From positions 1 through 45,777 of the IMG/VR virus record IMGVR_UViG_3300011432_000012: a stretch of 45,777 nt of DNA. The stretch is one strand, 5' to 3'. The notes beneath the pieces were generated by a model. It was given only the letters and a program-made list of their open reading frames with translations, did not search any database and had not been told where the DNA came from. A program made the translations under genes and the position numbers. Of the stretch, positions 2,361 to 45,777 are shown piece by piece. This stretch comes from a virus. Position 1 is the stretch's first letter. Every line of letters starts with the position of its first letter.

Positions 2361-3169
2361 CAGCCGTCGACCCACAGCTCAAGGAGACAGCGGCACCCAG
2401 GATGCGCCGGCGGGCGATCGTGCCCCGAGGGAAAGACCTCGCTCAGGCTGCGGCGCTTCCCGTCGTCGTTGCGCTTGCACGGGCCGATTGGGTTGCCCGC
2501 ATCGACGGCCTCGTCGCGCGCGGACACCCATTGCCGTTCCACGCGGCCGCCCGCAGCCGCCACCGCTTCGCCGCGCTCCTGCACCAAGTCCCCGACGTAC
2601 CGCACGGTCTCGGTGCGGGCGATCAGCTTGGCGCGTTGGTCGATCAGGCGTCGGCGGACACGGCCCGCCGTGTGCGCGGCGGCCGCTTCCGTGGCGCCGG
2701 CATTCAGCGCGGCACGGCGCGCGCGCTCGACTTGGGCGACTTGGCGCGTCGTTAGCCCCGTGGCCTGGCCGATCGTCGCGATCGCCTCCGGCGTCATCCC
2801 CGCATCCGCGATGAGTGAGAGTTGGAGCCGCACGGCGGCGAGCCCTTCTTCTTCGATCTGGCGGATCAGCTCGCCGATTCGCAGGCGGGCGAGCTCGTCG
2901 GGCGACGTCTGCTCGAGCAGCGTTTCGGCCAGCGCTTCAGCCACGAGCCGCCGCACGAGCTCGGCTTCGAGTGCGGCAAGCCGCTCGCGCAACCGGGCCA
3001 GGAAGCTCGACGGGACGATCCGCACGACCGCCGCCGCTAGCCACTCGGCCGGCGTGAGCAGCTGGCCCAAGCCGACGAGCCCCGAGTGCAGAGTGGGCTG
3101 CAGCCGTCGCTGGATCCGCGCCACCGTCCGCAGGTGTGCCACTCGACCGGCTGTCAGCCGGCGCGCCAT
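2360..3169 (-). CDS. Phage head morphogenesis protein, F-like (SPP1 gp7 type)
   Basis: This 269-residue minor capsid protein belongs to the Mu gpF / SPP1 gp7 family, which sits at the portal vertex and helps procapsid assembly or DNA exit. The C-terminal domain shows the family signature in order: Ala-Arg-Thr-Glu-Thr-Val-Arg, Gln-Trp-Val-Ser-Ala, a Cys, a Phe-Pro-Ser-Gly, and the terminal Pro-Pro-Ala-His-Pro-Gly-Cys-Arg-Cys that ends the F domain. The N-terminal half is long, helical and arginine-rich. It would normally follow the portal directly; here 7.5 kb of fibre and glycan genes intervene. The start overlaps the upstream stop. Confidence 0.85.
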   Translation of the reverse strand: MARRLTAGRVAHLRTVARIQRRLQPTLHSGLVGLGQLLTPAEWLAAAVVRIVPSSFLARLRERLAALEAELVRRLVAEALAETLLEQTSPDELARLRIGELIRQIEEEGLAAVRLQLSLIADAGMTPEAIATIGQATGLTTRQVAQVERARRAALNAGATEAAAAHTAGRVRRRLIDQRAKLIARTETVRYVGDLVQERGEAVAAAGGRVERQWVSARDEAVDAGNPIGPCKRNDDGKRRSLSEVFPSGHDRPPAHPGCRCLLELWVDG

Positions 3170-3513
3170 CAGGGCCGGACCGCGACGACGAGGCGCCGCG
3201 TGACGAAGTTGACGTCGGCACCATTCCCGAACACCTCGAAGACATCCGAGCCGGCGAACGACGCCAGCTGCGCATTGAGATCAGCCCCTTCGAAGACCGC
3301 GAAGTATTTCCCGGTGGTCCCGCGCTCCGCGGCCGCCTTGCTCAACGTCGCATGGATGGCAGCGCCGGCCTCCGTTGCGGAGAGGAAGAAGGTGAGCCCG
3401 GCGAGACCGGTCGCGACCTCGAGCGCACCTGTCGCCGCATTCTTGCGCCGCACAAGTTTCTCGGGCTCGTCATCATTCCCGCCTAAATAGAGTGGCTTGC
3501 CTCGATCGGGCAT
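3169..3513 (-). CDS. Hypothetical protein (114 aa)
   Basis: This unrecognised protein starts with a charged segment containing Leu-Tyr-Leu-Gly-Gly-Asn-Asp-Asp and continues with Ala/Gly-rich and beta-prone sequence. The start is an ATG at 3513, directly before the preceding gene's stop, and its own stop overlaps the start of the F-like gene. It is the last gene of the inserted fibre/glycan block and may be a small structural protein. Confidence 0.6.
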   Translation of the reverse strand: MPDRGKPLYLGGNDDEPEKLVRRKNAATGALEVATGLAGLTFFLSATEAGAAIHATLSKAAAERGTTGKYFAVFEGADLNAQLASFAGSDVFEVFGNGADVNFVTRRLVVAVRP

Positions 3514-3690
3514 TTAGTTCACCTCCAGACGGACGCGACTAGCATCGGCGACCCCAAAGCGCGCGAGTGATCCGTCGATGAGGACGTATCGCACACCGCT
3601 CCCGTCGACGACGTAGAGGGGGAGCGAAACGCCCACCGGTGCAGAGAACGGCAGGAAGTAGGAGGCGGGGTAGCCGCCGGCAATGATCAT
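3514..3690 (-). CDS. Small hypothetical protein (58 aa)
   Basis: A 58-residue ORF fits exactly between its neighbours: its ATG at 3690 overlaps the glycosyltransferase stop as ATGA, and its TAA abuts the next gene. The composition is beta-prone and hydrophobic (Tyr-Phe-Leu-Pro-Phe, Leu-Tyr-Val-Val-Asp) without a clear membrane helix. The overlap pattern is the main reason to call it. Function unknown. Confidence 0.55.
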   Translation of the reverse strand: MIIAGGYPASYFLPFSAPVGVSLPLYVVDGSGVRYVLIDGSLARFGVADASRVRLEVN

Positions 3691-4526
3691 CCTTGCACCC
3701 GTGGCCCGGGATAGGCGAGCTGCGCATCGATGTTGCTCTCGGGCGTGCCGATGGCGCGCACGATCTCCCCGTGTGCGGTCATGAGCTCGGCCCCTGGTGG
3801 TGACATGTGCAACCACTCGTCGAACCATTCCCGCGCGTGATCGCAGTTGCGGTAGCTCTCAAACCACGGGCCGCCGAGTGTGTAATGCAGAATCTTGGCC
3901 TTCGGGTTCGGCACGTACTCGCCAACCAGCCAGTTCCACTCCAGCGGGAGCGCTCCCACGCGCCCGTCGTCCAGCCATGAGAAGCGATGCAGCTCAAGCC
4001 CGGACAGAATGTTCACGCGTGCCGGTGTGAGCGCCTTGCAGCGAACACAGTCGAACACCATGAACGAGGACCAGTTCTTCCGGGGGTAGGGAACATTGAT
4101 CTGGTTCAAGAACTTCACCGTCGCCGTAGAGGCGTAGTCGTGTTGGCACACGTAGACGGCCGGCTCGGCGGCGTTGCTGCGTAGGCCGCGACTAGCTTGA
4201 TTGCGCCGCTCCTCCACCCGCGTGCGACGATCCCGCTCGACCACATCCATGACCTCGTAAATGTCGGCCAGGCAGAGCATGTCGGAATCCATGAAGATTG
4301 CGTCGCCCTCGTAGTCAGCGAGGTAGGGCACGAGGAAGCGCGTCATGCTGAACTCGGTAGACTCCGTCTTGCCACGCTCGCGCGTGTACAGCCCAGCAGC
4401 CCGCAGCGCTGGCTGCACGAGCGGTATGATCGCCACCGGGCCAGAGGCACGGGACAGAATGCTGTGCGCGCAGACGTGATAGGCCACCGGCTCGCGCGAG
4501 TCGTACCCGATGAAGATGCGTAGCAT
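3687..4526 (-). CDS. Glycosyltransferase, GT8-like
   Basis: This 279-residue enzyme probably moves a sugar from a nucleotide-sugar donor to a virion or cell-surface acceptor. It opens with Leu-Arg-Ile-Phe-Ile-Gly-Tyr-Asp-Ser-Arg-Glu, the typical start of GT8-like phage proteins. At about residue 78 it carries Phe-Met-Asp-Ser-Asp-Met, a DxD metal/nucleotide-sugar motif. The C-terminal half has His-Tyr-Thr-Leu-Gly-Gly-Pro-Trp-Phe, the conserved acceptor-side motif. It lies in a tightly overlapping run with a DUF115-methyltransferase and a serine-rich fibre, which points to fibre or capsid glycosylation. A role in changing host surface sugars is the alternative. Confidence 0.85.
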   Translation of the reverse strand: MLRIFIGYDSREPVAYHVCAHSILSRASGPVAIIPLVQPALRAAGLYTRERGKTESTEFSMTRFLVPYLADYEGDAIFMDSDMLCLADIYEVMDVVERDRRTRVEERRNQASRGLRSNAAEPAVYVCQHDYASTATVKFLNQINVPYPRKNWSSFMVFDCVRCKALTPARVNILSGLELHRFSWLDDGRVGALPLEWNWLVGEYVPNPKAKILHYTLGGPWFESYRNCDHAREWFDEWLHMSPPGAELMTAHGEIVRAIGTPESNIDAQLAYPGPRVQG

Positions 4527-5164
4527 CAGCTCCCCCGAAACATGGGTCCGCCACCGGCAGCGGCCGCGTGGCGCAGGTTCACGGCGATGGCCAGCTGAAT
4601 CAGACTGGTCACCGTGGTCCAGTCCAGCGATACCGCACCACCTGTGCCGGGCGCGGAGGCGACGGCCACCATCGTGGCACCGTTTGAATCGACTGGGCCT
4701 TCCAAGACCTCGGTGTCCGACGTTCCGAGATCCGGATTACTCCCGCACTGCACGCCAACCGCGAGCCCGTCCGCCGTGGTCGTGACGCTGATCGAATCAG
4801 GGGACGCGGTATCGGTGACCTGCCCGTCGAAGGGGTCCACGGTGTCGATACCATCCACGCCCCGGAATCCGCACGACCACGAATCCACGCTGAAATCTGA
4901 GGTTCCAACAAAGACCGTCTGGGCACCGCTCGGAGCCCCGACGAATACGGCCAAGTAGTTGCGTACATCCTGCCCGGCCTCGAAACCTTGGTAGCTCTCG
5001 GTCGGAGCTGCGGCGGCAATCGTGGCCGCGATCGTGGGGCTCGTCCCGTGCCACAGCGTGCAGGCAAAGAAGACCGCCGCCGCCGCCGGGATCGTGCGGC
5101 TCGCCGAATTAGTCTCACCGTCAAACGTGTAGGTGACGGCGGCGGCGGCGACGAAGCTAGGCAC
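4526..5164 (-). CDS. Putative structural protein (212 aa, beta-rich)
   Basis: The protein has an Ala/Thr/Ser/Gly-rich, strand-forming composition (Thr-Tyr-Thr-Phe-Asp-Gly at the N-terminus, repeated Ser-Val-Thr-Thr segments) typical of phage fibre or capsid appendage domains. It ends with a glycine-rich Met-Phe-Arg-Gly tail. The start is GTG at 5164, overlapping the previous gene by 8 bases, and its stop overlaps the glycosyltransferase start as TGATG. No catalytic motif was seen. Confidence 0.65.
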   Translation of the reverse strand: MPSFVAAAAVTYTFDGETNSASRTIPAAAAVFFACTLWHGTSPTIAATIAAAAPTESYQGFEAGQDVRNYLAVFVGAPSGAQTVFVGTSDFSVDSWSCGFRGVDGIDTVDPFDGQVTDTASPDSISVTTTADGLAVGVQCGSNPDLGTSDTEVLEGPVDSNGATMVAVASAPGTGGAVSLDWTTVTSLIQLAIAVNLRHAAAAGGGPMFRGS

Positions 5165-5573
5165 GCGCCCGCACCTTGTACGTGTCGAACAGCGTGGCCG
5201 GGGTCGGCTCCGCTACGCCTTGGGCTGGCCCACCGTAGAAATCGAACGGAAGCGGGACGCCGCGTACCATCGGGAAGGTGAGCGTTATGCCGAGCGGCGT
5301 CAGGTCTACGTCTCGGTGACTCGCATCGAGCCGCGCGGCGAGCCGAATCGTGCGCAGCGCCCCGCGGGCCGTCGTGATGAGAATGTCGCGCTTCCGTGCA
5401 CCGAGTGCGACGAGGCTGCCGCGCGTGAACAGCCGGGCGAGGGTGGTCGTCCGAGCAATCGGGCTGTCCCAGCGCCGAGCGTCGTCGTCCGCCACCACGA
5501 CCTCGAAGACGACCTCGTCCGCCGGATTGCCGGTCGGGCAGCGCGTGAACCGCTCCATGACGATCTCGGCCAT
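5157..5573 (-). CDS. Hypothetical structural-block protein (138 aa)
   Basis: Unrecognised. ATG at 5573 overlaps the stop of the lectin-like gene (TGATG), which decides the start; the open frame extends further upstream only by chance. The sequence is mixed alpha/beta with a run of short strands (Val-Val-Phe-Glu-Val-Val-Val) and a Pro-rich loop near the end. Its place between a lectin-like protein and another beta-rich protein suggests part of an appendage or its assembly. Confidence 0.6.
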   Translation of the reverse strand: MAEIVMERFTRCPTGNPADEVVFEVVVADDDARRWDSPIARTTTLARLFTRGSLVALGARKRDILITTARGALRTIRLAARLDASHRDVDLTPLGITLTFPMVRGVPLPFDFYGGPAQGVAEPTPATLFDTYKVRARA

Positions 5574-6310
5574 CAGGCGTGCCTGCTGATACGCATGTGG
5601 TCGTACCAGAAGTAGTCCTGCTCGCTCTTGGTCTCGCCCGACCCACCCCAGGTCGGCGCGATCTTGTGCTCGTCGAACGCATTCGCGGGCCAAGTCACGT
5701 CGGTGTAATTGCCCTGCAGCACGTTGTCGAGCCACCACTTCATCGAACTCGGGGACTTCCGCATATACCACTCAATCAGGTGCCACGACCCGAGCGTGAT
5801 CTCGGTGCTGTTCACGTTCGGATCTAAGTTGCGATTATCACTGGCGAGTTCGGTCGTCGGCCGGAGTAGATGGCTGCCAGCGGTCATCATGATGAACACC
5901 TGCCCACCAGCGCCGCCGCCGCCTAAAAACTGGAACGTGATCTTATTCCCGGCCGAATGGTCCTGCCACGGACTGCTCGCCTTCCAGTAGAACCCGATGT
6001 AGAGCTCGTTCCCGCCGCCGACATCCAGAAAGAGCGTCCCCGGATCATCACCCCCGGGGAAGCCGATCGGGTAGCTGTACTGCGCGACGAAACTCGGCGA
6101 CTGTGGGGCCGCGCCATCCGACGTGCGAGAAATGTTGCCGCTGTTGTTGATGAACCAGCCCGAGGAACCGACGGGATCGCCAGCGCCCGGGTTCGGCATC
6201 ACATCGCTAAAGCCGTACTCGTTGACGAGCGTGAAGCCTGCCGGCTCGTTGGGGAAACCGCTGAAACCACCCATCGGGGCGCGCACCATGAGCCCAGGCG
6301 TCAGCACCAT
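5573..6310 (-). CDS. Lectin/LamG-like protein
   Basis: This 245-residue protein looks like a concanavalin A-like jelly-roll domain. It has a glycine-rich first third, an Asn-Glu-Leu-Tyr-Ile-Gly-Phe-Tyr-Trp segment, and the common order of Gly-Ser-Trp-His-Leu-Ile-Glu-Trp-Tyr followed by Trp-Trp-Leu-Asp-Asn as seen in polysaccharide-lyase or LamG folds. Such domains on phage appendages bind or cut sugars. I see no certain catalytic residues. ATG at 6310 overlaps the previous stop as TGATG. Confidence 0.7.
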   Translation of the reverse strand: MVLTPGLMVRAPMGGFSGFPNEPAGFTLVNEYGFSDVMPNPGAGDPVGSSGWFINNSGNISRTSDGAAPQSPSFVAQYSYPIGFPGGDDPGTLFLDVGGGNELYIGFYWKASSPWQDHSAGNKITFQFLGGGGAGGQVFIMMTAGSHLLRPTTELASDNRNLDPNVNSTEITLGSWHLIEWYMRKSPSSMKWWLDNVLQGNYTDVTWPANAFDEHKIAPTWGGSGETKSEQDYFWYDHMRISRHA

Positions 6311-7704
6311 CAGGCCACCTGCGTGATCTTTGGACCGACGACGAACAGCAGCTCGGGGCCGACCTGCTCGACCTTCCCGATCGTGAAGAACTTTCGCAGC
6401 CGCTTCTCCCACCACTTGCGCGGCTGCTGGATCAGATGCGTGTTCCGTCCATCGGGGAGCGTCTTCTGCGCCGGCCCGGTGTGGATGACGAAGAAGCCGG
6501 CCAGCCGCACGACGCGCCGGAGATCGTAGAGCACGTAGAGCAGCTTGTCGGGCTCGATGTGCTCGAGCACGTCCGTGCAGACTACGATGTCCGCCGGTTT
6601 CGGCGACTCGTCTTTGCCCGCGATCGCCGGGTCGTACTCCTGAATGTGGAACGGCAGCGCCTTGGCGAGCCGCCCCTTCCCGCACCCGTAGTCCAGCACG
6701 TCCTTGGTCTTGAGCGCGGTGCACATCTTCAGGACGTTCTCGGCGTGCTTCTCGCCGCCCACCCCGTAGGCCAGGTTCCGGTCGTGGAGCTCGGCGTTCA
6801 GCCGCCGGTACTCGGGCGAGATCAGCGCCTCTTTGATGAACGCGACGAGCTGCAGGGACCGCTTCGCCGCATCGACCGACACGATCGAGTGCCGCACCAG
6901 GGCCTGCGTCAGACCTTCCCCGTAGAACTTGGCCCGCACGGCCGGGAGCTGCGCGAGCTCATGGATCGTCTGGCGCGCCGCCTCGAGCATCGCCGGCGTG
7001 GTGAGGTAGACCGTCCCGGACCCCTCCGGGTATTCGCACTCGGCGTATTTCTGCTGCGTGTAGGGGTGCGCCGCCGCATGGCGCACGTCGCCGCGGGCGC
7101 AGCCGTCGAGACCGAAGATGTGCAGCTCCGTGTAGCCGAGGAAGGCGGCGAGCGCCATCGCTCGGAGCCCCACGTCACACCCGCCCAGGACCGCCCACTC
7201 CCCAAACGGCAGGACGCGCTTGCCTTCCTCGGTCCCGTCGAACACATGCCAGAGCAGGACATGGTCGGCAAAGAGCTGTGGACCGAGTCCCGTCTCGAGG
7301 TGGTCGAAATACTCCGGCGCGCAGGTCGAGGCCGCGAGGTAGTGTACGGCCGGGTGCGGCGGCCCGAGCAGGCCGACCTTGTGGGCGCGCGGGTCGACCT
7401 CGACGTGATAGGTCGGCACGATCCCGCGCTCGAGCAGGAACTTGTGCGAGCCCGAGCAGGTGATCACGTGCGGGAATTGGCGGACGAGCTCCCACGTGTC
7501 CGTCAGGCTCGGCCCGAACCCGACGACGGCGACGGCGGTCTTCGCGCGCGCCGCGCGTTGTTCCGCAGTGGGCTCTTGGAGCCGTCCGACGCCGCGCTTG
7601 AGCGCGCGGGCGATCTGCTCGTCGCGCAGCCACATCGGCGCCGCATATGTCACGTGCTGCTTCTCGTCCGCCTTGAGCGTCCGGACCGCCAGCGTGGCCG
7701 TCAC
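6310..7704 (-). CDS. DUF115 (MptE-like)-methyltransferase fusion
   Basis: A 464-residue two-domain protein. The N-terminal part (about 45-270) matches the DUF115/6-hydroxymethylpterin pyrophosphokinase-like family: a Gly-Phe-Gly-Pro-Ser-Leu loop, Thr-Cys-Ser-Gly-Ser-His, and Tyr-His-Val-Glu-Val-Asp-Pro. In motility-associated (Maf) proteins this domain acts in flagellin glycosylation. The C-terminal part (about 325-464) is a class I SAM methyltransferase: Val-Leu-Asp-Tyr-Gly-Cys-Gly-Lys-Gly is motif I, and Cys-Thr-Asp-Val-Leu-Glu-His-Ile motif IV. The GTG start at 7704 overlaps the fibre stop as GTGA. With the glycosyltransferase downstream, it likely helps build or cap a methylated glycan. 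Confidence 0.85.
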   Translation of the reverse strand: MTATLAVRTLKADEKQHVTYAAPMWLRDEQIARALKRGVGRLQEPTAEQRAARAKTAVAVVGFGPSLTDTWELVRQFPHVITCSGSHKFLLERGIVPTYHVEVDPRAHKVGLLGPPHPAVHYLAASTCAPEYFDHLETGLGPQLFADHVLLWHVFDGTEEGKRVLPFGEWAVLGGCDVGLRAMALAAFLGYTELHIFGLDGCARGDVRHAAAHPYTQQKYAECEYPEGSGTVYLTTPAMLEAARQTIHELAQLPAVRAKFYGEGLTQALVRHSIVSVDAAKRSLQLVAFIKEALISPEYRRLNAELHDRNLAYGVGGEKHAENVLKMCTALKTKDVLDYGCGKGRLAKALPFHIQEYDPAIAGKDESPKPADIVVCTDVLEHIEPDKLLYVLYDLRRVVRLAGFFVIHTGPAQKTLPDGRNTHLIQQPRKWWEKRLRKFFTIGKVEQVGPELLFVVGPKITQVA

Positions 7705-10685
7705 TTGAGGCGCCGGATCCGTAGGTATGATCCGCGGAGGGGGCTCATCACCGCCGTGTTCACGCTGGTTGCCATCTGGAGTTGCACAACGCCGGTCGTC
7801 GAGACGAGCATGACCCCGCGGAAACGGCACAGGTGCGACGCGCCGGACCCCATCAATGTCGAGATCACGACAGCCCCCGAGTTCGCCGGACCCCATTCGC
7901 CGTGATAGAAGCTCGAGAACGAACTGGCGGCGGCACCGGCGAGGAGTGACGTCGAGCCTTCGATGTGACCGCCGCCTTGATTTAAGGCCGGGAACGTGAG
8001 CCCGAACTTGACGACGTTCGCGGGTGCGCTGAACAGCACGTCCGCATCGAGCTCGTAGAGCACCCCCGCACTCACCGAGACCGAAAGGCCGCTGATGTTC
8101 GTGAGCCCTGTCGCCGAAATGCTCTGCACCACGCTGACCATGGCGAGCGCAGCCGCGCTGCTGCCGCCAGGGACGGCGCTCAGCCGGTTCGAGATGGCGT
8201 TGATGACCGCCTGCAGTCCGACCGCCGTGCCCCCGCCCGAGACGGTGGAGACGAGACTCACGATCGACGCCAAGTGGCTGACGGTCGACTGCACAGACGT
8301 CACGTTGGCGGAGATCACGTCGCCGGCGGATTGGGCATTGCTCACCGTCGCCGCCAAGACGCTGAGGGCGGACGCTGCCTGGGCCGACACGGCGTCGAGC
8401 TCGGCCGAGGTCACGCTCCCGCCACCACCCCCTGCCTGCGAGATCTTGTTCGACAGCATATTGATGACGGCCTGCAGCCCCGTAGCCGAGCCCCCGGCCG
8501 ATTGCGCACTCACGTTCGACACCACCGAGCGCAACGCGCTGACGTTGGACGCCAAGCTCACCAGCATCGCACTCTGCGTCACGGTCACGATGGACGCGAT
8601 GAGCGACAGCGCTGCCGCAGCGGTCGCGCTCACGACCGACACTTCCGTGCTCGTCACACTGCCACCGCCGCCACCCGCCGGCGCCTCGACCGAGATGCGC
8701 TGCGAGATGGCATCGAGAATGCTCTGCAGGCCACGGACGGACGTCCCCGCCGCCGATGTCTTCACGCTCACGGCCGACCGCAGCACGGAGACCGCCGACC
8801 AGATCGACGCCGCGGCGGCCGAGACCGTGTTCGCATGGGCATCGGCGCTCGTCGCGGCAAGGCTCGCGACCGACGCGGCGGCCGACGCGGCTTGAGCGTG
8901 GGCATCCGCAGACGTAGCCGCCAAGCTCGCCACCGAGGCAGCTGCCGAGGCCGCTTGGGCGTGCGCGTCAGCCGAGGTCGCCGCAGCGCTGGCGATCGAG
9001 ATGTTCGTCGACAGCACGCTCATCTTGTTCGAGAGCGCGTTGACCACGCTCTGCAGACCAGCGGCGACGCCCGCGCCCGAGACCGCCGAGACCAGGCTGA
9101 CAATCGAGGCCAGGTGGCTGACCGTGGATTGCAGCGAGACGATGTTCACGGACAAGGCCGCGTCCGCCACCGACCGAACTGACGCTTCCTGGTTGATAGC
9201 TGAGGCCGCCTGGGCGGAGGCCGCCGAGAGCTCGGTGCTGGTGACCGAACCGCCACCGCCACCGGCCGCGCTGATCTTGTTCGAGAGGGCATTGATGACG
9301 GCCTGAAGGCCGGTCGCCGAGCCGCCACCCGCCGACGTGGCCGAGACATTCGACACGACGGACCGCAGCGCCGAGACGTCCGACTGCAGCGACGTAAGAG
9401 TGGCCGAGACCGCGTTCCCGATCGAGAGACTGTCGCTGACGATGTTCGACAGCGCGTCGTGCGCTGACCGCAGGTTCGAGATGTCCCCGGACAGCACGGA
9501 CGTGATGCGCGCCGAGAGCGTGGCGGCCGCCGCCGACAGCTCGGTGCTCGTGACGCTGCCGGATCCACCACCGCCCGCGGCAGAGATCTTGTTGCTGAGC
9601 GCATCCACGACGGCCTGAAGACCCGTCGCCGAACCACCACCCGCGGAGGTCGCGGAGACGTTCGAGACCGCCGACCGCATGTTGCTGACCGTGGACTGGA
9701 GCGACAGCACATTGACGGACAGCAGCGCGTCGGCCGAGCGCAGGTTCGATATGTCGTTCGAGAGGACCGACGTCACCCGCAGTGACAGTGTGGCCGCGGC
9801 TGCAGACAGCTCCGTGCTCGTCACACTCCCCGAGCCCCCGCCGCCGGCCGCCGAGATCTTGTTCGACAGGGCGTCGATCGCCGCCTGGAGCCCGGTGGCT
9901 GACCCACCTCCGGCACTCGTGGCGCTGACGTTACTGACCGCCGAGCGCAGGTTGCTCACCGTCGATTGCAACGACACCACGTCGAGCGAGAGTACAGCGC
10001 CGGCTGAGCGCAAGTTCGATATGTCGTTGCTGAGGACGGACGTAATCCGGTTGTCCAACGACACGGCCTGCGCGGAGACCGAGACCACCTTGGCGCTGAG
10101 CGTCGAGACGTTGGTCGAGAGCGCCGAGACCGCCAGCGACAAGGCAGCCAGGGCGACACTCACAGCGTTCGCATGAGCATCGGCCGAGGTTGCGGCCAGG
10201 CTCGCCACGGAGGCGTGGACGTCAGCCGCCCCAGCGGCCACACTCACCACCGACACCGCTTGCGCCAGCGAGGTATCTGCGGCGGCGCGCACCGATTGCG
10301 CGTTCGAGATCGTCGTGCTGATCGCACTGACGGCGAGCGACAAGGCAGCACCAGCCGAGATCGCGTTCGAGAGGTCGTTCTCAATGTCGGTGAGGGTCTT
10401 CGCCGTGATGGTCGCCGCGATCTGATCGCCGACGAGAATAGCGCGGGCGCCCGAGCCTTCCTGGGTGCGCACGATCGTGAGCGTGTCGCCCGCAATCCCT
10501 GTAACGCGAACGATCTCGGCGTTCGTCGGGACGGGGAGGACGCCAGCCGCCCAAACAGTGGCGTTAAACGGAGTGGCGGGGAACCGCGAGCCTTCGCCAG
10601 CAGCCACACCAAGGGAGGTCCCGCTCGCCGCCGGCGTCGGGGCGGTCGCGACCAGGGAGTAGGCTAGGTTCTTATGCGCATCCAT
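7701..10685 (-). CDS. Repetitive Ser/Ala/Val-rich coiled-coil fibre protein
   Basis: A 994-residue fibre. The N-terminal domain (about 1-100) is globular and probably anchors it to the particle. Residues about 100-860 are low-complexity heptads built from Ser, Ala, Val and Leu with Asn (for example Ser-Val-Val-Ser-Asn-Val-Ser), expected to form a trimeric rod. Within the rod are seven copies of a Gly-Leu-Gln-x4-x-x-Ser-Asn-Lys motif, each after or before a Gly-rich hinge. The last 120 residues form a beta-rich tip domain ending in Arg-Ile-Arg-Arg-Leu-Lys. The gene follows portal and precedes glycan genes, so it may be a head fibre or a displaced tail fibre. Confidence 0.85.
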   Translation of the reverse strand: MDAHKNLAYSLVATAPTPAASGTSLGVAAGEGSRFPATPFNATVWAAGVLPVPTNAEIVRVTGIAGDTLTIVRTQEGSGARAILVGDQIAATITAKTLTDIENDLSNAISAGAALSLAVSAISTTISNAQSVRAAADTSLAQAVSVVSVAAGAADVHASVASLAATSADAHANAVSVALAALSLAVSALSTNVSTLSAKVVSVSAQAVSLDNRITSVLSNDISNLRSAGAVLSLDVVSLQSTVSNLRSAVSNVSATSAGGGSATGLQAAIDALSNKISAAGGGGSGSVTSTELSAAAATLSLRVTSVLSNDISNLRSADALLSVNVLSLQSTVSNMRSAVSNVSATSAGGGSATGLQAVVDALSNKISAAGGGGSGSVTSTELSAAAATLSARITSVLSGDISNLRSAHDALSNIVSDSLSIGNAVSATLTSLQSDVSALRSVVSNVSATSAGGGSATGLQAVINALSNKISAAGGGGGSVTSTELSAASAQAASAINQEASVRSVADAALSVNIVSLQSTVSHLASIVSLVSAVSGAGVAAGLQSVVNALSNKMSVLSTNISIASAAATSADAHAQAASAAASVASLAATSADAHAQAASAAASVASLAATSADAHANTVSAAAASIWSAVSVLRSAVSVKTSAAGTSVRGLQSILDAISQRISVEAPAGGGGGSVTSTEVSVVSATAAAALSLIASIVTVTQSAMLVSLASNVSALRSVVSNVSAQSAGGSATGLQAVINMLSNKISQAGGGGGSVTSAELDAVSAQAASALSVLAATVSNAQSAGDVISANVTSVQSTVSHLASIVSLVSTVSGGGTAVGLQAVINAISNRLSAVPGGSSAAALAMVSVVQSISATGLTNISGLSVSVSAGVLYELDADVLFSAPANVVKFGLTFPALNQGGGHIEGSTSLLAGAAASSFSSFYHGEWGPANSGAVVISTLMGSGASHLCRFRGVMLVSTTGVVQLQMATSVNTAVMSPLRGSYLRIRRLK
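8190..9905 (-). repeat. Seven coding modules in the fibre gene
   Basis: Seven Gly-Leu-Gln modules are encoded near 8208, 8472, 8724, 9052, 9302, 9616 and 9886, spaced 250-330 bp. The protein motif is well conserved but the DNA differs at many third positions, so these are old duplications kept by selection on the protein. Confidence 0.75.
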
Positions 10686-10693
10686 CGGACAGC

Positions 10694-12403
10694 CTAACCG
10701 GCTGTCGGTTGCGGCCGACGATCAATCGCAGGCATCGGCGGGCGGTTGCCGTTCTCGGGGTTGCTGGGATCGGCATCCAGCGGCTGCTCTTCCACGAGCG
10801 CGGGGATCCCCATGCCGTGGCGCACGAACGTCTCGAGGTTCGGGTCGGGCGTCAGCACGCCCGCCATCGTGGCCTGCGCGATGCGGTCGAGCAGGGTCGC
10901 GACGGGCTGCTTCGGCGGATCCTCGGCCTCGGCCTCCAGCCGCTCCTTCTCCACCTCCCAGTCGATCCCCTCGTCGCGCGCCATGCCTTCGAGCGACAGC
11001 ACACCGGCGTCGCGCCGCACCTTATTGGCGGCTGCGTGCTCGGCCTCATCGCGCGCGAGCAGCGGCGGCCACTCGACTTTGATCTCGATCGTCTGGGCTT
11101 CTTCTTCGGTGAGCCCTTCGACCTGCTGCGCGCGCGCGGCAGCGATCAGCGCCCAGCGGTGCAGCTGCTCAAAGACCGGCGTGAAGAAGTCCTGCCAGCT
11201 CTCGAACTCGCGGACGCCCGGCGACTCGGCCACCATCGTCGAGCTGTAGTTCGCATTCGAGGCGTCGCCGGTGAACATGTACTCGGGCAGGCCGCTCGCC
11301 GCGGCGAGCGTCAGGAGGATCGAGCGACCGTCTTCCTTGGCGTCCTGGGCGTTGATGTTGGGGTTCTTGAATTCGTACTTCACCCCGGGCGAGGCGTGGA
11401 CCGTCGTCCCGGGCTTCAGCATCTTCTGCGCGCGCGCAGCGCCCGGCGTGTCCTCGCGCTCCTTCTGCTGCGCGTCACGGATGCCGGCGATCTGGCCCGG
11501 ACTGCCGGTGACTTCCTTCACCAGCACGACGGCGGTGCGCATCAGGTTCAGCGTGATGCGGTAGTTCAGCCAATCCTCGAACTGGCGGATCCGCTTGAGC
11601 AGCGGCTCGAGCTGGGAGCGGCCGCGCTTCACGTCCGAATCGACGCGGCCCTTCACGTGCAACAGCTCGCTCGCCGGGATGACCTCCTTCACCGTCTTGC
11701 CATCGGGGCACCAGCAATAGCCGAGCACCGTCTGGACGTCTTCCTTCGCCGTGACGATGCCATGCGTCACGGTGGTATTGGGGTCAGCGATCTGCTCGGC
11801 CGGCACGAGACGCAGGAAGATCATTCCCTCGGGCGGGTCTTCGTTCCCCTCGCGGAGCTGCTCGAGCGACGTCCCGGCGCGCAGGAGCAGCTGCGCCACG
11901 AGCGGGGCGACGTCGAGCTCGGGCGGCTCGTCGAAGCGCCGGATGAACGCCTCGCCGTCGCGCCAGGTACGCTCGGGGATCTCGTCCTCGAGCTTCTCCC
12001 AGTTGTTCCACTTCTGGAATTGCGCGAGCCAGGTGTCGCAGGCCTTCGCCACCTCGGGGCTCTCGTGCTCGACGCTGATCGTCGCGCCCTTGCCGATGAC
12101 GAAACGCCGCAGGCTCCCGAGGTAGCCGGCGGCGTGGGTGTTCTCGAGCGCGGCGCGCTGGGCCGCTTCGCGCAGGCTGGTCTGCGTGGTCTGATCGAGC
12201 TCGCGCTTGCCCTGCGTGTCGATCGGGACGAAGCCGTCGTTCTCCGGCTCGACGCGCTTGACGACTTCGGCGAGCACGGCGTTCGCGGCTTCGTAGCTCA
12301 GGCGGTCGTGGCGGGCGCGCTCCTCGGCGAGGAGGCGCTGCTCGAAGGGCGCCGCGACAACGGCGCGCAACATCGAGAGCATGCCCGGCCGGCGATCGGC
12401 CAT
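10694..12403 (-). CDS. Portal protein, lambda gpB-like
   Basis: This 569-residue protein forms the dodecameric DNA gate at the head vertex. Typical lambda-type portal features are visible: an early Gly-Lys-Gly-Ala strand, a Trp-Arg-Asp-Gly-Glu-Ala-Phe segment (about 150), His-Val-Lys-Gly-Arg before the stem, and Gly-Leu-Pro-Glu-Tyr-Met-Phe followed by Ala-Asn-Tyr-Ser-Ser. ATG at 12403 overlaps the stop of the small upstream gene (TGATG). The C-terminus is Pro-rich and probably disordered. The family places it with the large terminase just upstream. Confidence 0.9.
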   Translation of the reverse strand: MADRRPGMLSMLRAVVAAPFEQRLLAEERARHDRLSYEAANAVLAEVVKRVEPENDGFVPIDTQGKRELDQTTQTSLREAAQRAALENTHAAGYLGSLRRFVIGKGATISVEHESPEVAKACDTWLAQFQKWNNWEKLEDEIPERTWRDGEAFIRRFDEPPELDVAPLVAQLLLRAGTSLEQLREGNEDPPEGMIFLRLVPAEQIADPNTTVTHGIVTAKEDVQTVLGYCWCPDGKTVKEVIPASELLHVKGRVDSDVKRGRSQLEPLLKRIRQFEDWLNYRITLNLMRTAVVLVKEVTGSPGQIAGIRDAQQKEREDTPGAARAQKMLKPGTTVHASPGVKYEFKNPNINAQDAKEDGRSILLTLAAASGLPEYMFTGDASNANYSSTMVAESPGVREFESWQDFFTPVFEQLHRWALIAAARAQQVEGLTEEEAQTIEIKVEWPPLLARDEAEHAAANKVRRDAGVLSLEGMARDEGIDWEVEKERLEAEAEDPPKQPVATLLDRIAQATMAGVLTPDPNLETFVRHGMGIPALVEEQPLDADPSNPENGNRPPMPAIDRRPQPTAG

Positions 12404-16554: not shown

Positions 16555-16568
16555 TCAGTCGCCATTTC
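16368..16568. other. attP: attP: tRNA 3'-end core with flanking arm-type repeats
   Basis: Bases 16487-16516 read as the 3' end of a tRNA: a T-arm (GGGGG, TTCAAAT, CCCCC) followed by an acceptor strand GCCCCGA. No matching 5' half lies upstream at tRNA distance, so it is not a complete gene but an integration core that would restore a host tRNA. Two tandem 13-bp repeats lie left (16368-16380, 16381-16393) and two 12-bp repeats right (16545-16556, 16557-16568). All four share GCCA-(N)-TTC spacing and look like integrase arm sites. The integrase lies 0.8 kb to the right. Confidence 0.75.
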
Positions 16569-17310
16569 CACTGCCCATCTGCTCGAGATTCGTCACGCGC
16601 CGCCGGTGCAACTCGATGGCGACGGTCGCCTGGCGCCGGAGCTCGTAGGCCTCGTTGAATGCCCGCCGCTCCGCATCCTGAACGCCCAAGTTGAGCCACT
16701 GGCGGCACGCGGCGCAGATGTATCGCGGCAGCCCGACATCGAAGAGTGTTTTCTTTTCGCCGCAGAGCCCGCACCCGATGGCCTTCTCGGTTTGATACCG
16801 CTGGTCGGCTAGCAGCTTTAGGCGTTGCTTTTCTGCTGCCGCAGATTCCTTCGCCATGCGACGCTCGGTCTTGTCCAGCGGACCGAGCGGACGCACGGGC
16901 GAATTCATGGCGTCGCGCAACGCATTCAGGCGTGCGGCGACGGCCTCCTTGTCGGCGACGCGCCTCGCGACGTCGGTCGTCAACCAAGCGACCAACTCCG
17001 GATCCGCCCTGAACCATTCCCGGTGAACGCGGAGGTGCGCCCAGCGTTCATGCGCTTCCGCCTCAGAGAGAATCCATTCCGCGGCGGTGACGAGCACGAC
17101 CGGCTTCCCGGGCAACTGGAGGCCGTTGACGCGAGACGTGGGATTGATCGAGCGCCCCAGTTTGATTCGATCGCCGACCTGTATGGCGTAGAAGTGCGAC
17201 GGTTTCTGCGGTCCTTCGAAAGGAGCCGGCAGGCCGAAGCGCCGATACGTTTCATACAGCCGGTTGATCAGCGTGTCCTGTGGGTCGACGACCTCGTTCT
17301 CAGTGCCCAT
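16555..17310 (-). CDS. GIY-YIG-like (MUG113/T5orf172 type) protein with zinc ribbon
   Basis: Residues about 38-110 look like the MUG113/T5orf172 branch of the GIY-YIG nuclease superfamily: His-Phe-Tyr-Ala-Ile-Gln is the first strand, Ile-Lys-Leu-Gly-Arg-Ser-Ile-Asn-Pro-Thr-Ser-Arg the second motif with its Arg, and a later Ala-Glu-Ala-His-Glu-Arg supplies the Glu helix. A Cys-Gly-Leu-Cys and Cys-Ala-Ala-Cys pair near residue 195 forms a zinc ribbon. It is encoded between integrase and attP, and its 3' end covers the right-hand arm repeats. A nicking or DNA-binding role in integration or exclusion is possible. Confidence 0.7.
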   Translation of the reverse strand: MGTENEVVDPQDTLINRLYETYRRFGLPAPFEGPQKPSHFYAIQVGDRIKLGRSINPTSRVNGLQLPGKPVVLVTAAEWILSEAEAHERWAHLRVHREWFRADPELVAWLTTDVARRVADKEAVAARLNALRDAMNSPVRPLGPLDKTERRMAKESAAAEKQRLKLLADQRYQTEKAIGCGLCGEKKTLFDVGLPRYICAACRQWLNLGVQDAERRAFNEAYELRRQATVAIELHRRRVTNLEQMGSGNGD

Positions 17311-32557: not shown

Positions 32558-32851
32558 TCATTCTTCGAGAACCCTAGTCGTCGGCTCCTCATTGCGGGCA
32601 AGCACCGCCTCCCGGCGGATCGTCCCGCGACACCCATCGCAGAGATAGAGATCAACGTCGGGCACGTTCTGATGTTTCGGAAAGCGCGCCCGCACCTTGG
32701 CGAGTCGGGGCGCTGACAGCTCGCCGAAATGCACCAGCGCATCAGCCGCCACGAAGCGACGAGCGCAGCAGCGCGGCGGTCCCTCGCCGGCATCGCGGTC
32801 TATTGACTTGCCGGGTGGCACGATGCCTGCCTCATCCGCCCACGTTTTCAC
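32558..32851 (-). CDS. Hypothetical cysteine-containing protein (97 aa)
   Basis: Basic protein with Cys-Cys-Ala-Arg-Arg and a Leu-Cys-Asp-Gly-Cys pair that could bind zinc. The GTG at 32851 overlaps the tail-tip stop. Unrecognised; probably the last tail-module gene. Confidence 0.6.
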   Translation of the reverse strand: MKTWADEAGIVPPGKSIDRDAGEGPPRCCARRFVAADALVHFGELSAPRLAKVRARFPKHQNVPDVDLYLCDGCRGTIRREAVLARNEEPTTRVLEE

Positions 32852-35800
32852 TAGAGTACCTCCTGCGCGACCCAGATCACGTTATCGCCCGTGCTGGGAA
32901 TGGCGCTCTCGGTGGTGTCCGCCGCGGTCGTCCACGTCACACCGTTCCACGCGCCCGGATTGGATCCGGCGCCGTCCCCAGGCTTGACCGTGAAGCTTCC
33001 CGTCCCGCTGCTCCCGCCGATCGTGACGACCGAGAACTCCTTCGCGCGAATCCGCACGTCGTCGTTGGCTCCAAGACCGCTTACGACAATCGGCTTCTGC
33101 TCGTGCGACCAGGTGTTCAAGACGTTGGGATCTGAGTCATTGGCTATGGCGCTGTAGAGGTAAGTCGCCCGCTCGACCCAGCCCCCGCCGTCGTTCGTCT
33201 CGAGCGCCACCGTCAGATTGACTTGCACCTCTGAACCCGGCTCACTGACCTCCTGATCGGCAGCGACGACGACTTCGTAATGCACGGTGTAAGTGTCGTC
33301 ATTCGCCGGCACATTGGAGCCGAGATCAGCGTCAGCGGTTTCCCCCTCAGCGTCCAGCAGACTGCCGCTCGCGAAATCCGCGCTGCGGGCCGTCGTGGCT
33401 CCCACGGAGACGATTTGCGCGCGCGACGAGAATCCGCTCGCCGTCACGTCGAACGCCTGGAGCCGCAATCGCTGCTTGCCGGCGGGCAATGTGCTGGAGT
33501 AGGAGACGTATTGCCCGCCCTTGAACAGAATCATCGGGGCGTTTTGGTACGTCTGCGCGAACGTGATCCCGGCCACATTCCCGTCGGCGTCGGGACCGTT
33601 GACCGTGATCTCCTCACGATGCCGATAGAGCCGGTGCGAGACCCCGCCCTCGAAGACGCCGTTCGTTGGAACGAGCTTCACACTGGCCTCGGCCGTCACA
33701 CCAGTGGCATCCTCAGCCATGAGCGCGTACTTGCCGTCGAGGAACTCCTGGCCGCGCTTCAGCTTCCCGGTGTTGGGGTCGACCAGCCCCCCGATATAAA
33801 TGAGCTTGTTCCGGACGAACTTTGCCTCGCCTTGGATGCCCGTCGCCCCGGCGCCGCTGTAGGGGGTGATCGTGAGGAAGACCGACTGCGTGTAGCTGAA
33901 GGCGCCGGCGTCGTACTCGCCCGTGTTCCCCTCGGCGATCGTCCCGGTGCCGGCAGCGGGCTGGCCCGCCGTGCTGGTCGCGATCTTCACCGAGCGCACC
34001 TTGGAGTCGCCAACCCACAGCGCGAACAGATGGTCGCCGCGCCAGATCAACTCGGCGCTCTGCAGCATCGGGTCGAAGACGCGGGTCGCGGCCGTGCCGC
34101 GGCCCAGGTCGTAGAGCGGCCGGATCGCGACGGTGAACCGCCGGCCGCTGCAGGGATTCGGATCGTCGCACAGCTCGATCTTCGCGCTGAGCCACAGGCG
34201 ACCGCGCAGCGTCGCGCCCGTGTGCGGATCCCGCACGACCAGCATGTCGGTCTCGAACACGCCCGAGTCGCCCGGCTCGAGCTCGGGGAACATGTACGAG
34301 GTCTCGATCAGCGCGCGGCCGCGCCCCGTCGCGAACCAGTCGAGCACGCGCGTGCCCACGCTGCGCGCGAGCACGGCATAGTCGGCGATCGGCTGCGGCG
34401 GGATCCACTCGGCGATCTCCTGGGGCAGGCGCTCGAGCGGCGCGTTCTTCGCCTTGCCGTAGGCGAGCACGCCGACGGCCGACGCCCCCTCCCACTCATC
34501 GTCGAACTGCCCCCGGGCCGCGTTCCAGTTGAACGGCACGACATAGGTGTCGATCCGGTCCTCAATCCCTTGCGTGATCGAGAGGATCCGGATCTCCTCC
34601 ATCGGCCACACGAAGCAGAACTCGCCGGCGTCCTTCATGTTCACGGCCTTCAGCTTGCCCTGGCTGCCGAGGAGGCCGAAGCCGACGACGTGCGCGACCG
34701 CCTCGAGCTCGTCCTTGCCGGTGGGCTCTTCGTCGTCGGTGACCTCGGAGATCGCTTTGCCGATCAGCGTCGTCGTGTCCTCGAGCCCGGGCCCGCGGTA
34801 GCGGACATCCACCTCGAGCTGGTTCGCCAGCAGGTCGTCGTAGACGGCTTTCACGGACTGGTTCACGTAGCTCACCGATTGGCGGCGGTCCTCGGTGCGG
34901 AAACGCCACCAGGTCAGGATCCCGCGACGCGAGCCGCCCGCCCCGCCCACGTTGAACGTGATCCACAGCTCGAGGTTCGCGGGGTCCGTGATCGCCGCGA
35001 CGCTCGCGTCGGACAACTGGAAGCTGCCCGGCGTGATCAGGTCGCTGATATTCGCCTGGAGGGTGCTCGTCGCGATCAGCGTGCCCGACGAGTGCCGTAA
35101 CTCGATGGTGGCGTCGATCGTCTTCCCGGCGGCCACGTCCTTCCGGATCCGGTAGTCGACGTAGAGCCGGCGCCCGGGCAGATCCGCCGGCGTCGGCAGC
35201 GACTCCTTGTGAATCGCGTTGACGGGATCCACCGCGGACTGGACATAGGTCGCGTCGTCCGCATCGACCTCATTCACGCGCTGGTAGAGATTGACTCCGC
35301 TGCCCGTGTCGGTCGTGTAGCCGCCCACGCTGACGTCGCCGTCGGGCGCGGAGGAGGCCCCGGGCGACTTCTTCGGCAGGAGGCCGCGGATCAGCGTCAG
35401 CACCGAGACGACCGGGATCGCGTAATCGCTCGCCCGGGGGTGCTGGCCCTTGGGCAAGAAGTCGTCGATGTGCAGCCACTTGTCCTCGGACAGGCTCGCG
35501 GCACCGACCCAGAGACGGAACGTGTAGGCCCGAAGGTCGGCATCGGCGAGCAGGTTTTCGATCCAGCTATGGTAATCGCGCTCGCCGTCCAGGAGGCCGA
35601 GCAGCATCCCGTCGACGACCTCGCCCTGCAGCGTCAGCAGGTCAATGCCGTAGCCGCCCGAGAGCTGGATCCGCGCGACGGAATGGCCCCCCGCGTCGTA
35701 GGCGGGGTTCGTGCGGATCTCTTCGGCGCCGAGCGTGCGCAGCACCGGGGTCAGGCTCGCGCTCGCATCAGTGAAGAACAGCGCGCGGATCTCGTAGGTC

Positions 35801-36897
35801 TGCCGCAGCCCGACGTCCGTGAGTTGGGTGTTGTCTTGTCCGGAGAGGAATGTGCGCCAGTCGCCCGGCGTGGCCGGGTTGCCGCCATCCTTCAGGACCT
35901 GGCCCGTCAGCGCGGTCCCGTTCGGGACGGCGCCGTTGATCGTGAACACGACGGGATTGGTGGGCACCCCGTTCAGGTCGAGCCGGTTGCCAGCCCCGCT
36001 GAACGTCAGGTCATCGTTCGCATAGGTGCCGTACTCGATGACGAGCCGCGGCGTGCCGGCACCGGCGCCGTCGTCGCCATGCGTGCCGGGCTCCAAGAGG
36101 GGCACCATCGTGAACACGGACTGAGGCGGCGCGACGAGTTTGCGGCTCGAGAGCACGTTGCCGTTCGTCGTGACGCTCGGGACGGTGTTGTCGTAGCCGA
36201 GCCCGATGTTCGTCGCCGGCGCGTTGTCCTTGTCGAGTCCCGTGAAGACCAGCAGGGTGACCGGCGCCGGGACGGCATTGAAGAGCGTGGCCAGCAGCTC
36301 GAGGAACTGCGGGGTGCCGTACTGCTTGGGCCGTGGCCGCGCGAGGACGGGCGCGATCGAGTAGTCGAAGGTGACGAGCCCCTCGGCCGAGCCCTGGACG
36401 GTCGCGTAGACGGGATCGGCGATCGGCGCGCACACGAGCTGCCGCTTGGGGGGGAAGCCGAGCGGGAAGCCGACCTTCACGATGCGCAAGAGGTCGAGCC
36501 GCCATTTCACGACGGTCTGCGGGTTCGCGGGATTGCGCCGCGGATGCAGCCACGCCTTCACGCGCTTGATCTCGATCTGGGCGGGCTCGGCGCCGGCCCA
36601 CTCGACGACGGGGCAGGTGAAGGGGAAGCGACCGTCGAGCTCGAGGTCGGTGAAGTAGGACGTGTGGGGCGCGCGCTCGGGGATGAGCGTCTGCACGGTC
36701 TCGGCCAGCCGGACCCCGTGATCGAGGACCTGGAGGCCGGTGAGGGAGTCGGCGGCGTTCCACTGGTCCTTGCGCTGACGCACGTCAGACCGGGTGATCT
36801 GCAGCGCTTCGATGAACTGGTCGACCTGGGGATCGCCGCGGCGGAGCAGGGCTTCGAGGTCGGGATGGAGCCCGATGCCGCCCGCCGACGTCCTCAC
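32851..36897 (-). CDS. Central tail tip / tail hub protein
   Basis: A 1348-residue protein, the largest of the genome, in the position of lambda gpJ/Tal: after tape measure and distal tail proteins. The N-terminal third is beta-rich hub-like sequence; the C-terminal half has fibronectin or Ig-like strands and a Gly/Ser/Asp-rich end. It likely closes the tail tip and contacts the receptor. GTG at 36897 overlaps the upstream gene (GTGA). Exact domain limits cannot be set by eye. Confidence 0.75.
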   Translation of the reverse strand: MRTSAGGIGLHPDLEALLRRGDPQVDQFIEALQITRSDVRQRKDQWNAADSLTGLQVLDHGVRLAETVQTLIPERAPHTSYFTDLELDGRFPFTCPVVEWAGAEPAQIEIKRVKAWLHPRRNPANPQTVVKWRLDLLRIVKVGFPLGFPPKRQLVCAPIADPVYATVQGSAEGLVTFDYSIAPVLARPRPKQYGTPQFLELLATLFNAVPAPVTLLVFTGLDKDNAPATNIGLGYDNTVPSVTTNGNVLSSRKLVAPPQSVFTMVPLLEPGTHGDDGAGAGTPRLVIEYGTYANDDLTFSGAGNRLDLNGVPTNPVVFTINGAVPNGTALTGQVLKDGGNPATPGDWRTFLSGQDNTQLTDVGLRQTYEIRALFFTDASASLTPVLRTLGAEEIRTNPAYDAGGHSVARIQLSGGYGIDLLTLQGEVVDGMLLGLLDGERDYHSWIENLLADADLRAYTFRLWVGAASLSEDKWLHIDDFLPKGQHPRASDYAIPVVSVLTLIRGLLPKKSPGASSAPDGDVSVGGYTTDTGSGVNLYQRVNEVDADDATYVQSAVDPVNAIHKESLPTPADLPGRRLYVDYRIRKDVAAGKTIDATIELRHSSGTLIATSTLQANISDLITPGSFQLSDASVAAITDPANLELWITFNVGGAGGSRRGILTWWRFRTEDRRQSVSYVNQSVKAVYDDLLANQLEVDVRYRGPGLEDTTTLIGKAISEVTDDEEPTGKDELEAVAHVVGFGLLGSQGKLKAVNMKDAGEFCFVWPMEEIRILSITQGIEDRIDTYVVPFNWNAARGQFDDEWEGASAVGVLAYGKAKNAPLERLPQEIAEWIPPQPIADYAVLARSVGTRVLDWFATGRGRALIETSYMFPELEPGDSGVFETDMLVVRDPHTGATLRGRLWLSAKIELCDDPNPCSGRRFTVAIRPLYDLGRGTAATRVFDPMLQSAELIWRGDHLFALWVGDSKVRSVKIATSTAGQPAAGTGTIAEGNTGEYDAGAFSYTQSVFLTITPYSGAGATGIQGEAKFVRNKLIYIGGLVDPNTGKLKRGQEFLDGKYALMAEDATGVTAEASVKLVPTNGVFEGGVSHRLYRHREEITVNGPDADGNVAGITFAQTYQNAPMILFKGGQYVSYSSTLPAGKQRLRLQAFDVTASGFSSRAQIVSVGATTARSADFASGSLLDAEGETADADLGSNVPANDDTYTVHYEVVVAADQEVSEPGSEVQVNLTVALETNDGGGWVERATYLYSAIANDSDPNVLNTWSHEQKPIVVSGLGANDDVRIRAKEFSVVTIGGSSGTGSFTVKPGDGAGSNPGAWNGVTWTTAADTTESAIPSTGDNVIWVAQEVL

Positions 36898-44674: not shown

Positions 44675-45777
44675 TTAGACGGCGTTGACCTTCACCACCA
44701 GCCGGTGGTCGGTCGCCTGCACGTCCCCGTACTCGCGGACCTTGAAGCGCGCGACGATGTCCCGCTCGAAGTCTTCGTCGTTCCCCGCCGGTTGCCGGAA
44801 GGTCTGGAGCGGCCAGATCTCCTTATAGATGAACTGGCGCTTGAAGTCCCCGATGAGCCAGTCGGACGCATCGTCCCACTGGTCGGCGCCCTGCGCCGCA
44901 TCGAGGAACGGGCTCGAGACCGCGCGAAGGCCGGGCACGAGCTGCCGCGCGACGCCGGCGGTGATGACCGTCGCCGTGGTCGTGTTCGTGCGATCCTCGA
45001 CGGCGTTGACGATGCGAGCTGCCGTGCCGGCCAACTCCTGGGCCGTGAGGATGTGCGTCGGCATCCAGATGATCGGGTCAGCACCGCCCTCATCTCCCGG
45101 CTCGCGGTCGTCGCGCTGGTTCAGCGCGTAGAACGCCAGCACTTCCTGAATGTCGGTCCAGTCGATGAGTGGCGTCGCGGTCGAGAGCAGCGAGTTATTG
45201 CCCGCGCTGTAGAGCTGCGTGGCCACGCCCTGCGGCCGGTAGATGCGCTCGGTCGAGGCGACGTCGGCGACGGCGCGAATGATCCGCTTCTCGCGGTTCG
45301 CGCGGAGCATATTGCCCAGGCCCTGCGCCCGCAGCAGCATCTGCCCCGTCTGGTCGAAGAAGACCGCCTCCTCGGAGACCGAGAGCAGGCGGCCGCGCTT
45401 GGTTTCCGTCGTGGTGACGAACTTCTCGCGGAAGGTCGAATCCTGGTAGGGCTCGCCTTCCTCGACGACCTTCGGGCCTTGCAGGCTCGTAAACCCGACC
45501 ATGCGCTCGCCGCGCAGCTTGGACGGGACAACCGTGACGAGCTCGTCGCCGATCGCGCCGGGCATCTCGTAGCCCTCGATCACCTTGGCCGAGATCAACT
45601 GACCGACGGCCGAGGGAAACGCGCTCGAGGTCACGGCCTCGCGGAGCGGCATCTCGACGTAGCCCATGTGATCCATGGCAAAGGCGAGCGTCGATTCTGC
45701 GGGGCCGACCAGCGCTTCCCACAGCGAGCGGAGGGAGAAGTCTTCGGGCCGTGCGCGCTTGCGCTGGCCATTGGGCA
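44675..45777 (-). CDS. Major capsid protein, C-terminal part
   Basis: Together with 1-217 this forms a 398-residue HK97-type capsid protein. Motifs such as Ser-Val-Ser-Glu-Glu-Ala-Val-Phe-Phe, a Leu-Gly-Asn-Met-Leu-Arg-Ala-Asn-Arg-Glu helix, Trp-Met-Pro-Thr-His-Ile-Leu-Thr and a C-terminal Val-Arg-Glu-Tyr-Gly-Asp strand fit that fold. The N-terminal part before 45655 is a copy of the left end. Confidence 0.85.
   Translation of the reverse strand, partial: PNGQRKRARPEDFSLRSLWEALVGPAESTLAFAMDHMGYVEMPLREAVTSSAFPSAVGQLISAKVIEGYEMPGAIGDELVTVVPSKLRGERMVGFTSLQGPKVVEEGEPYQDSTFREKFVTTTETKRGRLLSVSEEAVFFDQTGQMLLRAQGLGNMLRANREKRIIRAVADVASTERIYRPQGVATQLYSAGNNSLLSTATPLIDWTDIQEVLAFYALNQRDDREPGDEGGADPIIWMPTHILTAQELAGTAARIVNAVEDRTNTTTATVITAGVARQLVPGLRAVSSPFLDAAQGADQWDDASDWLIGDFKRQFIYKEIWPLQTFRQPAGNDEDFERDIVARFKVREYGDVQATDHRLVVKVNAV
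45655..45777. repeat. Right copy of 123-bp terminal direct repeat
   Basis: Identical to 1-123 base for base; shows that the contig closes on itself. Confidence 0.95.

Follow-up and report, generated by a model that had tools for sequence, protein, structure and literature searches.

A recurrent gene core of serine-rich fibre, DUF115-methyltransferase and GT8-like glycosyltransferase in uncultured phages suggests a module for fibre decoration

Why should a phage keep glycosyltransferase-like genes directly behind a fibre gene, in the middle of its head module? The locus that raises this question lies at 3169-10685 of the virus record IMGVR_UViG_3300011432_000012 (45,777 nt; this whole stretch is called the window here), on the minus strand between genes for a portal and an F-like head protein. 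The first-pass annotation had read its eight genes as a unit that builds, glycosylates and methylates a fibre. We find that part of this cassette, namely a serine-rich fibre, a protein in which a DUF115 domain is fused to a methyltransferase, and a GT8-like glycosyltransferase, recurs elsewhere, and we consider it probable that the neighbouring fibre receives O-linked sugars and methyl groups from these enzymes, the three genes making up a self-contained fibre-decoration module.

The recurrence is of particular interest. A query of IMG/VR with a DUF115 alignment returned 80 loci; including loci from other queries, 71 DUF115-methyltransferase fusions were collected, or 52 after reduction at 90% identity, a sample that is not fully independent since part of it was fetched by DUF115 itself. 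The upstream gene is visible for 47 of the 52, and a fibre with the tip domain stands within two genes in 36 of these and immediately upstream in 30. A GT8 gene is nearby in 31 of the 52 (no more than six genes downstream in 30, just upstream in one). Loci fetched by GT8 similarity alone (L004, L006, L011 and L027) have fibre tip, DUF115-methyltransferase and GT8 in consecutive order, and the module is also present in two contigs fetched with the fibre N-terminal domain, L128 and L091 (GT8 is not visible in the latter). Within the set from that N-terminal query, DUF115 lies within three genes of all three fibres that have the tip domain, versus none of the 57 fibres without it. Three narrow queries with the tip domain found only contigs with an adjoining DUF115 gene, a weak result given that the patterns were derived from such contigs. 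The genes upstream of module fibres match terminases, tail proteins and portals from several PHROG families, so the module lies among the structural genes of a diversity of phages. These observations support a conserved, recurrent core, in many unrelated phages, of a serine-rich fibre, then a DUF115-methyltransferase, then usually GT8.

Gene calls by codon usage bear out the eight head-to-tail genes and their coordinates in the window, where adjacent genes of the interval abut or overlap by 1-8 nt. With the two flanking genes they are:

10694-12403, minus: portal (context); Pfam Phage_portal_2 (lambda-type) 6.5e-24, phrog_21
7701-10685, minus: fibre, 994 amino acids (aa), by gene call; anchor at aa 1-108, serine-rich coiled-coil-like stalk, tip in the last ~150 aa
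6310-7704, minus: predicted DUF115 (Maf-like) and class I S-adenosylmethionine (SAM) methyltransferase fusion, 464 aa; Pfam, profile, model
5573-6310, minus: 245-aa protein by gene call, labelled lectin-like, possibly jelly-roll, from a reading of the sequence only
5157-5573, minus: 138-aa protein by gene call; no Pfam or PHROG family match
4526-5164, minus: 212-aa protein by gene call; no Pfam or PHROG family match
3687-4526, minus: predicted GT8-fold glycosyltransferase, 279 aa; alignment of 34 relatives, model
3514-3690, minus: s1, 58 aa; matches the C-terminal end of a repetitive L088 protein of 224 aa
3169-3513, minus: s2, 114 aa; part of the core head module common to the window and L088
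2360-3169, minus: Mu F-like head morphogenesis protein (context); PF04233 6.7e-6 (just below cut-off), phrog_3517 1.9e-12

A functional unit of all eight genes had to be given up, since only the fibre, the DUF115-methyltransferase and often GT8 recur; the lectin-like, 138-aa, 212-aa, s1 and s2 genes are peculiar to the phage lineage of the window and lie outside the core. The label lectin-like was not confirmed by any Pfam, PHROG or PDB sequence match, nor the label beta-rich, given earlier to the 138-aa and 212-aa proteins, by any Pfam or PHROG match.

The DUF115 half of the fusion matches Pfam MptE-like/DUF115 (PF01973) at 5.3e-13, with 49.5 bits against a cut-off of 34.6. In a PDB profile search, a profile of 12 relatives matches the Maf flagellin glycosyltransferase 5mu5 at 9.5e-8, and MptE chains are absent from the matches at E<=0.1. 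The predicted model of the protein (mean pLDDT, the predicted local distance difference test, 85) aligns in its DUF115 part with 5mu5 at a VIA Z of 19.9 over 221 residues. By predicted model and profile comparison, then, the domain is nearer Maf than the pterin kinase MptE. The other half of the fusion belongs to the class I SAM methyltransferases and has a predicted Rossmann fold, as indicated by Pfam (Methyltransf_23, 5.3e-7, 30 bits versus a cut-off of 27), by the SAM-binding GxG of its DYGCGKG motif and by the likeness of its model to methyltransferases (VIA Z 13-15). The DUF115-methyltransferase fusion seen in the first reading is thereby borne out by Pfam, profile and predicted model. 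We call it Maf-like, and not a flagellin Maf, because its neighbour is a phage fibre and no flagellar or nonulosonic-acid genes were recognised among the annotated neighbours in the window. Longer versions of 690-900 aa with added domains are found at L006:3646-6318, L027:7319-9982, L059:143-2833 and L091:12286-14364: an FkbM methyltransferase follows the methyltransferase domain in L006, L027 and L059 (2e-14 to 8e-12), and a weak match to a 2-oxoglutarate (2OG)-Fe(II) oxygenase is seen in L006, L027 and L091 (0.008 to 0.002, below cut-off). Elsewhere FkbM and the 2OG-oxygenase are encoded by separate neighbouring genes. The added domains suggest a multi-step modification.

The 279-aa protein has no Pfam match at E<=0.1 and its PDB profile match, to WbbM, is weak (0.003). 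Its predicted model (pLDDT 87.6), however, matches WbbM, LARGE1, GlyE, LgtC and glycogenin at Z 15-17 in Foldseek and VIA comparisons, the best VIA values being those for GlyE (17.3), LgtC (17.1) and 3tzt (17.0), and D80-x-D82 and H214..G218 are invariant in the alignment of 34 relatives. The protein thus has the predicted GT-A fold of family 8 with its DxD and C-terminal His motifs, and the initial call of a GT8-like glycosyltransferase holds on the predicted fold and the invariant motifs.

Where the module begins can be read from the fibre itself. Cassette fibres have N-termini of at least six unrelated groups, while the tip domain of the window fibre is common to 50 other proteins of the fetched loci (it has no PDB sequence match). 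Distances between DUF115 domains correlate with those between tips (Mantel r 0.38, p 0.002) and are uncorrelated with those between fibre N-termini (r 0.00, p 0.43). The N-terminal distances in this comparison are saturated; it shows mosaicism and does not amount to a fine test. Most simply, stalk, tip and DUF115-methyltransferase would travel together and be joined to each phage's own anchor. Such a module boundary inside the fibre gene makes the distal fibre a likely substrate.

The composition of the fibre can be set beside this. The window fibre is 18.6% serine overall, with an excess of Ser-Ser spacings of 3 and 7 and a deficit of spacings of 2, and its stalk shows heptad periodicity. DUF115-adjacent fibres average 17.3% serine versus 9.6% in the other fibres that share the N-terminal domain (p 7e-15, for sequences that are related and not independent); the excess is also found among fibres with the same anchor (p 0.001 for 7 versus 45 proteins), L128 with its collagen-like fibre being the exception, and stalks are richer than tips (20.6% versus 11.1%). 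Near a recurring ETAAR motif, serine occupies seven positions, spaced 4-3-4-14-4-3, in 64-94% of cases, each beside a hydrophobic core position. As a control for serine content, the ETAAR stalk motif was sought outside cassettes and found in only two windows, which are too few. The serine pattern would suit a row of exposed acceptor sites, though plain stalk design may also account for it. The anchor domain is present in many IMG/VR contigs; it follows the "head protein" phrog_240 in 19 of 63 contigs, versus matches to isolate proteins annotated "tail fiber", which leaves the fibre on head or tail, just as the first-pass annotation had it.

The arrangement in the window is not an accident of assembly. 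Contigs of three other metagenomes cover it piece by piece: L086 (99.99% identity over 12 kb) from integrase through terminase and portal to fibre, L002 (100% identity) from the fibre end through F, and L003 (100% identity, 13.5 kb) from DUF115 through the tail and across the end junction. Together with the recurrence of the module, these near-identical contigs exclude a misassembled or displaced tail operon. The window carries a 123-bp direct terminal repeat (1-123 and 45655-45777), and the genome is complete and circular, as this repeat and the joined ends in L003 indicate; the major capsid gene, cut by the window ends, is rejoined from both parts in L003. On the minus strand the order is terminase, a 70-aa gene, portal, fibre, DUF115-methyltransferase, lectin-like, 138-aa, 212-aa, GT8, s1, s2, F-like, a 115-aa gene, protease-like, decoration, capsid and neck/tail genes. 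About 65 nt of the 212-aa gene (at about 4690-4755) are absent from the otherwise identical L002, which fuses the 212-aa frame to GT8 there, either as a variant or through an assembly slip. Elsewhere in the window, a T5orf172/GIY-YIG-like homing endonuclease gene (16555-17310) overlaps the end of the integrase gene, and 32851-36897 encodes a 1348-aa tail-region protein, possibly a tail tip, with no Pfam or PHROG match.

Comparison with relatives places the cassette as an insert. Portal and F had been described as normally neighbours, a statement that fails for this lineage: they are also apart in its closest relative, L088 (portal 74% identical), where other genes separate the portal from s1, s2 and F and where no fibre anchor or enzymes are found between them. 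Since L088 holds other genes at the same place, the cassette is an exchangeable insert in this head module; s1 and s2 occur in L088 without it. The repetitive protein of L088 that s1 matches (L088:14175-14849) consists of "ETDLAQAV" repeats; s1 is possibly a repetitive structural protein in shortened form. In L128, from an unrelated phage, the order is portal, an intermediate gene, collagen-like fibre, DUF115-methyltransferase, a second transferase-like gene, radical SAM protein, GT8, one small gene, a ParB-like gene and F. The radical SAM protein between DUF115 and GT8 is of the B12-binding type (L128:9147-10595), and a similar run occurs in L235. Portal-fibre-F as a general arrangement was rejected, PF04233 being found in only five of the 50 records fetched with the fibre N-terminus or GT8.

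From the linkage, folds, motifs and serine pattern described above, we infer a fibre substrate, an order of steps, a sugar and an effect along the following lines. The phage would make a coiled-coil fibre of trimeric type whose stalk presents serines in a regular 3-4 heptad pattern. The Maf-like DUF115 domain would place the first sugar on Ser/Thr of the stalk (or the tip) in the cytoplasm before assembly, a timing proposed by analogy, because Maf glycosylates flagellin Ser/Thr in the cytoplasm before export (PMC4065374). Drawing on a nucleotide-sugar donor, GT8 may then add or extend a sugar, and methylation by the domain fused to DUF115 may cap or modify the glycan (or the protein); the FkbM methyltransferase and 2OG-oxygenase domains that are fused on in other phages could supply further steps. 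Stiffening, protease resistance, receptor tuning and shielding can all be imagined as effects. The fibre-modifying unit of the first-pass annotation is thus favoured by conserved linkage and by glycosyltransferase-like folds, with three core genes in place of eight and with modification as a prediction. The odds are about even for a broader version, in which a mobile module of distal serine-rich fibre, multi-step enzyme and GT8 has been set on at least six unrelated anchors and yields fibres that are hydroxylated, glycosylated and methylated.

Several points weigh against decoration of the fibre. Gene linkage can stem from shared exchange rather than from the action of an enzyme on its substrate, and high serine may merely come with a homologous stalk by inheritance; the cassette fibre of L128 is Thr-rich and Ser-poor. 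The DUF115 model also matches MptE (8sd5) at Z 14.6 over 194 residues, and the methyltransferase could act on protein rather than sugar. GT8 is the looser partner and may act elsewhere: its distances do not track those of the tip (Mantel r -0.17) and it is not nearby in 21 of the 52 cases, some of them at contig ends. Activity, glycan and virion modification alike are read from genes and predicted models.

Other targets must also be considered. The enzymes could alter the host surface (capsule, lipopolysaccharide or flagella) during lysogeny or at a late stage of infection so as to block re-adsorption, and merely accompany the fibre because it has to match its receptor. Serotype-changing phage glycosyltransferases are known (PMC12619734), a fibre and the modification of its receptor would be expected to exchange jointly, and this phage carries an integrase. 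We nonetheless regard this as unlikely: the enzyme genes belong to a late structural operon in which they overlap those for fibre and head, nothing in the cassette was recognised by Pfam or PHROG as a flippase or membrane partner, and the regular placement of stalk serines is left unexplained. Quite improbable, too, is a different virion protein (capsid, decoration or tail tube) as the target of the DUF115-methyltransferase and GT8, whose place beside the fibre would then be due only to block exchange of structural modules. There is precedent in the glycosylated capsid and tail-tube proteins of mycobacteriophages (Freeman 2023, as cited in PMC12619734), and GT8 without a tip-domain fibre is common in other phages, for example L012, where it lies beside scaffold and capsid genes; yet the DUF115-methyltransferase follows the fibre tip while the genes upstream vary among several portal families and tail proteins, and L088 has the same capsid and head genes without the enzymes. 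Hypermodification of phage DNA bases by GT8 and the methyltransferase is very improbable and was set aside, for although DNA-decorating phage glycosyltransferases are known (also cited in PMC12619734), neither a pyrimidine hydroxymethylase nor any other supporting base-modification gene was recognised among the window genes scanned, DUF115 looks like a protein glycosyltransferase, and what the enzymes accompany is a fibre.

The reading we prefer, suggested by the return of the same block in dozens of unrelated uncultured viruses, is that such viruses modify their fibres chemically by a hitherto undescribed route. Neither the DUF115 part nor the tip domain turned up among 50,697 isolate-phage records, which may be why the fibre-DUF115 association seems undescribed. 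BFVD holds single proteins of uncultured phages named MptE-like, and 84,980 cellular genomes yielded only two relatives, both on contigs of metagenome-assembled genomes, one of them equal in length to a viral contig. We found no open-licence PMC paper combining DUF115, phage and glycosyltransferase, and nothing in that literature on tail-fibre glycosylation of this type or on a fibre-linked cassette. Phage fibres decide which bacteria get infected; if they are decorated as proposed, predicting host range from fibre sequence alone would be incomplete and Maf-type protein glycosylation would exist outside flagella. There may also be a use for these enzymes as tools with which to decorate coiled-coil proteins.

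Among known systems, Maf (5mu5) shares with the DUF115 half, by profile and structure, the central fold and motifs (GPS.., FG.D), and its partner is likewise a long, serine-rich, helical filament protein. The phage form differs in its fusion to a methyltransferase, sometimes with FkbM and 2OG-oxygenase, in having a phage fibre as partner and in that no nonulosonic-acid genes were recognised near it. The GT8 family (LgtC, GlyE, glycogenin, LARGE1, WbbM) offers the GT-A fold over most of the protein, the invariant DxD and the C-terminal His..Gly motif, at only 10-19% identity; the phage subfamily, phrog_28018, has no assigned function. In mycobacteriophages, phage-encoded enzymes are also proposed to glycosylate virion proteins, but the targets are capsid and tail-tube subunits, whereas the window-type enzymes are inherited with a fibre stalk and tip. 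Mimivirus modifies its collagen with a glucosyltransferase and hydroxylase-type enzymes, a case of viral fibrous proteins glycosylated by the virus's own enzymes (PMC9546862), and the phage versions likewise combine oxygenase and transferase domains, with a collagen-like fibre in L128; the Mimivirus enzymes belong to other families and to a eukaryotic virus. A cultured example with a looser set of such genes is Caulobacter phage CcrSC, in which tail protein gp168, a weakly DUF115-like gp169, GT8 gp172 and methyltransferase gp173 lie in one run. There the domains are unfused, extra glycosyltransferase-like genes are present, and gp168 is not serine-rich and has galactose-binding-like domains. 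Its gp169-gp174 (L083:6712-11198; DUF115-like, GT8, methyltransferase and GT9-like) provide a cultured test system.

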